From the IMG/VR virus record IMGVR_UViG_3300025941_000667, positions 1-64,000 of that record: a stretch of 64,000 nt of DNA; one strand, written 5' to 3'. The notes under the pieces are model-generated. The model saw nothing but the letters and a program-made list of their open reading frames with translations. It searched no databases and had not been told where the DNA came from. How positions within the stretch are numbered: position 1 is the first letter of the stretch; every line of letters starts with the position of its first letter. Below are positions 20,201 through 23,200 of this stretch, piece after piece. Origin of the DNA: a virus. A program made the position numbers and the translations under genes.

Positions 20201-23200
20201 AACCGGCATTTTGGGCGCTGTTCAGGTTGCCGTCTTCGGCTGGAACAAACTGCCGCACGAGTTCAGGACTCATGTTCTTTGCGTCCATGAACGCAATTTC
20301 TTTGGGCGACATACCGGCCACGCCAGGATTGTTGGCCTCCTGCGCAAACTTGACCCGGTTCGGAACTTCGGTCTGTCGAACCCGCACCAAGACAGGTGCT
20401 TTCATGTTCTGGATAGCCTGCGGGTCGAGACCCCAGCGGGGCGCATTGTCTACGAGCCACTGTTTGTAGTCGCCCGCCGTGCCGCGGGCGTAGGCTTTAC
20501 GCAGCCCCATGGTGCGGCCATTGCCGCTTTCTACGGTCTTGTCAGGGCCAACAATCGGAGCACCGGGAGATGGGGTAGGTGTATCGCCTAGCCGGGCAGT
20601 ATCAGGCTTATTCCCAATCTCTTCCACTTGAAGACGAAGTGATTGTTGATCACGGTTACGTGGTTGCAGTTCCTGCGGGTAATCAGGATTTGCGCGGTAA
20701 TTGTCATCGTGCGAGGTCACCAAGTCAGGCGCTTCCGCAACAGCTAACCGGGTATCAAATTTTGTCCCTGCTTCGGTGGTCACAGGATGGGGGTGGCCCA
20801 TCAGGAAGCCGGAAGGGGTTTCTTGTGGAGGCGGTTCTTGACTTTGTGAAGAGGATTGTGGTATAGTAAGGGGTGCTCCCAGTTCTGAACTAGGAGCACC
20901 AGACACGTTACTCGTAGGAGGAGCAACATGCCCTTGATCACTTGTGTCTGTTTTTTCTGTGGGACTCAATTTTTGCGGCGGCCTTCCCAAATCACTCGGG
21001 GAAGGGACCATACTTTCTGTGGTCTGCCCTGCCATTTTGCGTATCGTCGTGTCGGCAATATCACTGCGAAGGGATATCGAGTTTTTCGGATCAAAGACAA
21101 GCGGATCTCCGAGCACCGCTTGGTCATGGAGCGACACTTGGGACGACGACTTGATCCCACGGAGGACATTCATCACATTGACGGGAACGGACTGAACAAC
21201 GCTATTGAAAATTTGAGGGTCATGCAGCGCTCTGATCACAACGCTCATCATCATCCGTTGACTTGGGATATCGAAGCCGCCAAGGCCATGCTCACGAAAG
21301 GCCGGACTGTTCGAGAACTCGCGCAGACGATCGGCGTCAGTGAGAGTGCTATCGCGCATGCCTTGAAAAGGCGCAACATTTCCGTGAATAGGCTGAGGAA
21401 GGACGGGATGAACAGGAAAATTGAGGCTGCCCGCGCCTTGCGGGAGCAAGGATGGACCTTCCGGCGCATTGCTAGGGAGTTGGGTTTCTCCCTCAGTTAT
21501 CTTTTTCGTGCTTTGCGGTAACGATGACTCTTCTTTTGCGCTGGAAAGCGCGGTTTGGTGTGGCAGTTGCTCTTGACTTGGCGCAGGCTCTTCTGTCTGT
21601 TGTTCCGGCGTAGGAGCAGGTGCTTCTTGTGGAGCAGGTCCAGCTTCTACGACTTTCGGAGGTTCGTCCACTTTAGGAGATTCGAATTTCGGAGCCTCAG
21701 TTTCGAGAGGGGCTATGGGTTTCTCAGGAGCAGTCGGGACTTGGATAGGCGGCTTCTTTCCGCGTGCTAACGCTTCCGCAACCGTGCGCAGCTGGGCAGG
21801 CTGCATCTTATCCAAATGGGATTCCCCCGTGAGTTGCTTTGTCCACTCACCAAACGCTGGATTCTTCTCCGCATCGGATTCTATCCCATGACGCTGTGCA
21901 ATCGTATGGATATCTGTTGGACGTAAAGTGTATTCATTGCCCGGCTCAATAGTCTTATTAAGATTAGGATGTGCCTCAGTTGGAGCCTCTTCTTTTGTCG
22001 CTGGAGACAATATGGGTTCCGGCGCTGTCGGTGGAGTAACTGGTGGCGTTACCGGAGCTTCCTGCTTCGCCTTCGGCTGTATCCCGACCTCTTCAATCAT
22101 CTTCCGCAACGGACTCGCCTGCTTGATAGAGATGCCAAGTTCTTTACGAATTTCGGATATAGTTGGAACTCGACCAAGCCCCTGCGCATACTGGAGTGCG
22201 CGTTCTTCGAGACTGCCGGCGGGAGGAGCAGCAAGTTTTACTTGGGGCGGCTGTGCAACAATCGGGGGTGGCGACTGGGTCGATACTGGGGAAGTGGACT
22301 GCGCTGCATTGACATCTCGGAGAAATGGAGAGTCTTCAGGAACATCTACATAACGGATTTTCTTTCCGTTGACCGTCACAGTTGTGAGCGAGTATTTCTT
22401 CGGAAGACTCGCGGCGAGATTAGGAAAATCGGACTCATACAAACGCGCCATCCCTGGAGGAATACGCCCTTCACCATATTTTGGCGCTGGGGATGGCGCT
22501 TGTTCAGGTTGAACAGGGGGCTGTTCAGTTTTTGGCGCTGCCTGTTCAGTTTGAGGAGCCGGCTGTTCAAGAGGGGCGCCCTTTGCGGGTGGGGGGAGTG
22601 TAGGCGGCTGCGGGCCAGCTGGACGGAGCTTACGATAAGCCTTATCAATCGCTGACGTCTCTTGCGGCGTCAGATTCTTGACTTCCAACCACTTTGAGTA
22701 GAGTTCTTGGGCTTCGGGACCAAGAGCGGCAATGTCTTGTGGGGTGAGTTCTTGCCCGTCAGTCCAGCGGGTCAGTGCTTGATTTTGTGGGTCATTTGCC
22801 GGGGCATTCTTCCGTATATTTTTGAGCGTAGAACGAAGATTACTAGCAACCGCATCAACTGGCGCATCGTTAGGTAATCCCAAATCCTTTTTAAGGCCAA
22901 GATATTCCCGTTCACCTAATGACAACGGACGACCAAGAATAGACGAAGCCGAGAGTGGTTCACCAACAGCTTTTACACCAAGAGCAAAGCCACCGAGTTG
23001 CCCCGCCTGTTCACCGATCGCTTTCCCGCGCGCAGCGCCCGCAGGTCCACCAAGTGCACCTCCTGTCATTGTCCCAGCAACTTCAGTAAGTGGGGTGAGC
23101 GCTTTCGCTGCCGCCATGCCACCCACAATACCCATCGGGTGAGTAGCTAAGGCAGGAATCATGGAAAGTGCAAGAATATCGCCAACTCCAGGATTTGGTT

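Follow-up and report, generated by a model that had tools for sequence, protein, structure and literature searches.

The window analysed here, a stretch of 64,000 nucleotides (positions 1 to 64,000) forming part of the 78,217-base IMG/VR virus record IMGVR_UViG_3300025941_000667, contains an HNH endonuclease gene that lies on the strand opposite to a giant phage gene of the polyvalent (DarB/DdrB-like) class and wholly inside its open frame. The HNH gene is probably a frame-transparent homing endonuclease gene, and translation of its complementary strand would supply the giant protein with a conserved insert that is tolerated. On balance, we also favour the broader view that such genes represent a third class of homing elements besides introns and inteins, namely a two-strand gene with a nuclease on one strand and a conserved, partly folded insert domain on the other, which would have evolved so that the element invades linkers and loops of important genes without splicing.

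The HNH gene and its host gene

The giant gene (14049–24239, minus strand) encodes a protein of 3396 amino acids in which an SLT lysozyme-like domain, a linker, a ddrB-ParB domain, a helicase and a methyltransferase follow one another, the multidomain composition by which giants of the polyvalent type are recognised. The HNH gene (20928–21521, plus strand) has an ATG start and encodes 197 amino acids. Its product matches the Pfam family HNH_3 (E = 3e-11), with the catalytic domain at residues 63–105 (21114–21242, plus strand), and residues H63, R64, H82, H83, N91, N95, H104 and H108 are invariant in an alignment of 10 HNH sequences. The N-terminus carries a zinc-ribbon-like pattern CxxC...CxxxC (Cys pairs at 8, 11, 31 and 35), and the C-terminal half (residues 114–197), with two helix-turn-helix units, is matched by HTH_38, HTH_23 and other families. 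Two hallmarks of HNH homing endonucleases are present, an HNH domain with its catalytic residues and DNA-binding modules beside the nuclease domain. The AlphaFold2 model of the protein has a mean predicted local distance difference test score (pLDDT) of 88, and I-HmuI (PDB 1u3e, HNH_3) is among its top fold matches, although the match is weak.

The giant frame is open throughout its 3,396 codons, 228 of which cover the interval 20838–21521 and lie in a Pro-rich linker ahead of the ddrB-ParB domain, in agreement with the roughly 230 antisense-like linker residues that the earlier note had read from the sequence. The antisense-coded insert itself (20928–21518, minus strand; giant residues 908–1104) carries the family motifs GxGGxD and VPVNVMN; the SLT transglycosylase domain (23805–24107, minus strand; residues 45–145) lies upstream of it and the ddrB-ParB domain (20376–20768, minus strand; residues 1158–1288) just downstream. 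The codons of the two genes stand opposite each other in exact register, and therefore the giant frame could be interrupted only by TTA, CTA or TCA codons of the HNH gene, which has none of them. Calculated from phage codon usage, a stop-free frame has a chance of 1.7–1.8% over the HNH gene and of 0.9% over the whole stretch of 228 codons; taking the codon usage of the giant itself raises the chance to 6%. Taken alone, the open antisense frame of the window is thus suggestive but weak evidence, and it is the relatives that make the case strong. Direct repeats flanking the insert (71–82%) were considered as a target duplication and rejected, being read as the linker's own repetitiveness.

Recurrence among relatives of the HNH protein

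Single-protein searches found no close relatives of the HNH protein, nor of the ParB region of the giant, and alignments were needed. The resulting set comprised 246 sequences with a related HNH protein, including the window and some duplicates; it was collected with HNH sequences only, blind to context and embedding, and the start codons of the relatives are uncertain. Nearly all of the nearest relatives are antisense, in register 0 and wholly within host frames of 869–3397 codons, while unembedded HNH genes mostly lack an open antisense frame. In a tree built from 133 HNH proteins, the window belongs to a group of 14 members, 13 of them embedded, with a Shimodaira–Hasegawa-like approximate likelihood ratio test (SH-aLRT) support of 86; the embedded state is clustered on this tree far beyond expectation, no shuffle being equally clustered.

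The first embedded set consisted of 18 genes, which were examined together with the clade member at locus L112 (19 genes). A search with the antisense segment itself returned 40 loci, of which 8 were already known and 24 were newly found embedded genes, the remaining few having short or partial frames; in at least 32 of the 40 an open HNH frame stands opposite a long host frame. Altogether, at least 42 distinct embedded loci were obtained, all antisense, in register and inside polyvalent genes, AT-rich genomes being among them, and the opposite HNH frame is open in every embedded case. A similar segment lacking the HNH gene, which according to the earlier note would refute its reading, was looked for and found in none of about 80 giant-gene relatives, and no clear instance occurs among the 40 loci found with the segment. 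Since the segment is never clearly seen without the HNH gene, the latter is evidently the maintained element, and the antisense segment does not outlive it.

Nearly all embedded cases come from metagenomic contigs. Three are in bacterial genomes, one of a named strain, Aromatoleum anaerobium LuFRes1, where the HNH gene (L271) is antisense within a polyvalent gene of 2398 codons. Comparisons with annotated phages gave no match for the antisense segment of one relative and no obvious cultured example for the HNH protein of another. HNH genes occur in 5 of 39 records with related giants, in each case outside those giants.

Selection on both strands

TTA, CTA and TCA are absent from all 19 genes of the first set, for which the joint probability of being stop-free, calculated from host codon usage with kinship ignored, is about 2e-36; among unembedded HNH genes 20 of 194 are stop-free. 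The three codons are missing from the 24 new genes too, which were themselves found through the antisense frame. Synonymous codons were then compared at positions where two HNH proteins share an amino acid, and the extent of codon sharing was set against permutation. With the active-site columns excluded, codon sharing in the embedded genes reached z = 12.9, whereas five samples of unembedded genes ranged from −2.1 to 1.0; in an earlier form of the test, z was 9.0 for embedded genes and lay between −1.5 and 4.2 for controls.

The effect is strongest at Gly86 of the HNH motif (21183–21185 in the window, plus strand), which is encoded by GGG in 17 of the 17 embedded genes found through HNH patterns versus 23 of 174 unembedded genes; the codon in L112 is GGC. 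On the other strand GGG yields the conserved Pro of the motif [IV]P[VI][DN]V[VM][ND] in the giant frame. More generally, the antisense residue is conserved above the sense residue in 21 of 158 columns, compared with 2–6 of 87–108 columns in controls, one example being antisense Gly opposite Ser, Ala or Thr of the HNH protein. These codon and conservation patterns would be difficult to account for without translation of the giant strand, and both strands appear to be under selection.

Host genes and insertion sites

Ten host genes besides that of the window were scanned with Pfam. Domains of polyvalent proteins flank the insert on one side or on both in six of them (InPase, MuF_C, ART-PolyVal, LPD1, LPD5, LPD22, LPD38, SLT and Acb1), and a seventh matched the methylase family Eco57I. 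The inserts are located either in linkers between domains or in loops of domains. In eight groups of embedded genes the insertion site is homologous among the members, and HNH identity within a site is 0.47 versus 0.36 expected (0 of 2000 permutations). In L367, L370 and L379, which represent three diverged phages with related HNH genes, the insert occupies one and the same loop of an ADP-ribosyltransferase-type domain, and they would be well suited to identifying the target sequence.

The clearest empty site, at the protein level, is that of L115, where the insert splits the conserved stretch GVKQEEMKWLGLEEWLK ... KGNTLISKQEISDFVKANNIEIKEV, which appears uninterrupted in Microcystis phage Mel-JY33, Pelagibacter phage HTVC028P and Dolichospermum phage Dfl-JY45. 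When viral sequences were scanned for a closely related empty allele of L115, the only hit was L115 itself, and no close empty allele was found among bacterial relatives of the Aromatoleum host gene.

From these comparisons, we infer homing, cleavage and translation of the insert along the following lines. A homing endonuclease gene would have entered the giant polyvalent gene on the opposite strand, and the host gene would survive without splicing by virtue of the stop-free, in-register frame offered by the complementary strand of the endonuclease gene. The giant protein would be translated straight through, gaining about 200–230 residues in an interdomain linker or, in relatives, also in surface loops, and the translated insert would stay in the protein, presumably made tolerable by its conserved helical core. 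The HNH protein would also be made and would cut those copies of the host gene in co-infecting phages that lack the insert, upon which repair would copy the HNH gene into them.

Predicted fold of the insert and alternative explanations

AlphaFold2 modelling of the antisense alignment gave a mean pLDDT of 53, with a helical core at 75–84 and disordered tails on either side, and the insert is taken to be a tolerated, partly folded domain that is retained in the giant protein. One could propose instead that it is removed. That the HNH gene resides in an intron spliced from the giant mRNA, an option that the earlier note had set beside a homing insertion preserving the host frame, would agree with the frequent occurrence of homing endonucleases in introns and with the antisense endonuclease gene known in a group I intron of Porphyra (PMC2585584). 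However, a comparison with Rfam at its thresholds detected no group I or group II intron in the window, nor in any of 15 related loci, and both perfect frame retention and antisense amino-acid selection are unexpected for a spliced segment. This option is unsupported, as a segment absent from the mature mRNA would offer no reason to preserve antisense amino acids, and we regard it as very improbable; the other option, insertion by homing, is well supported by the recurrence, the site specificity and the codon data. Self-removal of the segment from the giant protein, in the manner of an intein, is likewise improbable. Insertion into conserved loops does resemble that of inteins, and more distant HNH genes are found antisense inside real inteins of terminase-type genes, but 15 antisense segments of the window type gave no Pfam match, splicing domains included, and no conserved Cys/Ser start or His-Asn end was seen at the segment borders.

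Chance would be another explanation, with a foreign gene landing in a linker and the other strand happening to be open. For the window alone its probability of 1–6% is not negligible once the oddest feature has been picked, but the arrangement recurs in 42 distinct loci, AT-rich genomes among them, and the antisense residues are under selection, which refutes chance and leaves it hardly any credence. Phage HNH proteins are also known with roles such as packaging or attack on competing phages, and the gene could be a free-standing nuclease of this kind that serves the phage and is merely parked in the giant gene. The promoter-like site of its own fits this proposal; the HNH lineage, however, follows the insertion site in the host gene, and the restriction to polyvalent genes together with the empty site of L115 fits homing better, which makes a host-serving nuclease unlikely.

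Several observations weigh against a translated homing insert. The overall confidence of the model of the antisense segment is low, and no fold match to it was found. One unembedded control group was also in excess in the first codon test (z = 4.2). L112, a clade member, lies just outside its host gene, the stop codon of which precedes it by two codons, and the support of the HNH tree, based on 134 columns, is moderate, the columns being few. No empty site was found at the DNA level, and that of the window itself was not found among relatives of the giant gene, where an empty homologue is not recognisable because the linker of the window evolves too fast.

Antisense HNH genes in other contexts

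The more distant antisense HNH genes within inteins, mostly of the terminase type, include L155, L182, L185, L186, L243, L246 and L253, as well as the L231–L260 group and L240. Their register differs (offset 2), and most of the tested host frames are matched by splicing models of inteins. A mini-intein whose endonuclease is encoded opposite to it seems to represent a second antisense solution, independent of the first. In L152 and L170, an antisense HNH gene is found in register within a gene resembling DNA adenine methylase, where it is flanked by FIDPPYS and RKTTGYASDLPRADV; the lineage of these HNH proteins is separate from that of the window.

Control region of the HNH gene and neighbouring features

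As described in the earlier note, a promoter, a 29-bp palindrome and a strong ribosome site accompany the HNH gene opposite the open giant frame, all within 20838–21521. The promoter-like site is of the sigma-70 type (TTGACT-18-TATAGT with TG before the −10 element; 20838–20867, plus strand) and agrees with the consensus at 10 of 12 positions, 0.5 such sites being expected in shuffled sequences. Such sites are enriched upstream of the embedded HNH genes, 20 of 38 falling in the top decile of controls (p = 6e-11, with a slight bias from the choice of start codons). Between the promoter-like site and the Shine-Dalgarno sequence AGGAGG (20916–20921, plus strand; six bases 5' of the ATG) lies the palindrome (20872–20900), with 13 of 14 positions paired, which is present in a single copy in the window and was not obtained in shuffles. 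It could form an RNA hairpin or, possibly, act as an operator for the helix-turn-helix part of the HNH protein itself. A role as an operator of the whole family was rejected, since inverted repeats are not enriched in the relatives and the palindrome is specific to the window.

The 3' end of the giant frame overlaps the next minus-strand frame (11752–14274) by 226 bp (14049–14274) in another reading frame. Contig IMGVR_UViG_3300009177_001103 derives from the same phage (99.98% identity over 23 kb) and joins the ends of the record (window positions 1–457 and record end 78217) through 17 kb missing from it; the genome is therefore about 95 kb in size and circular or permuted. The contig with the portal gene proved to be of the same phage and was set aside as a comparison, as it stops short of the HNH locus.

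Relation to known homing elements and biological meaning

The HNH protein resembles free-standing phage HNH homing endonucleases in its HNH_3 domain, its C-terminal DNA-binding helices and its site-associated insertion into phage genes. In phage T4, segD is an antisense free-standing gene, and insertion of the seg and mob genes is described in a review as intergenic or near genes (PMC2988022). In contrast to these and to other free-standing phage HNH genes, the gene studied here lies inside an opposite-strand open frame that is kept open and appears to be under selection. Endonuclease genes opposite the host strand are also found in the group I introns of Porphyra, in the P1 extension (PMC2585584), but there the host gene is rescued by RNA splicing, whereas here no intron was found and the host frame runs through. 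With inteins that carry homing endonucleases, the element shares the character of a selfish in-frame insert within a host protein gene; unlike in inteins, no splicing domain was found, and the nuclease is encoded on the other strand, outside the host polypeptide. Proteins of the DarB/DdrB type represent the class of the host gene, not the element itself; polyvalent proteins, as described by Iyer et al. (2017) and cited in PMC7824862, are multidomain phage giants reported to be injected with phage DNA. The open-access literature yielded no description of an endonuclease gene lying antisense within an open coding frame, nor of a family of antisense nucleases residing in polyvalent genes, subscription papers being outside the search.

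The central problem of a homing endonuclease is not to kill the gene that it enters, for which introns and inteins rely on splicing. In the present case, a selfish gene appears to have a complementary strand that has become acceptable as protein. Dual selection over about 200 codons in a whole family would be a large natural case of sense/antisense dual coding, and many of the giant phage proteins in databases are encoded opposite a nuclease gene that has been overlooked. The presence of L271 in a named strain means that the system may be testable in culture.
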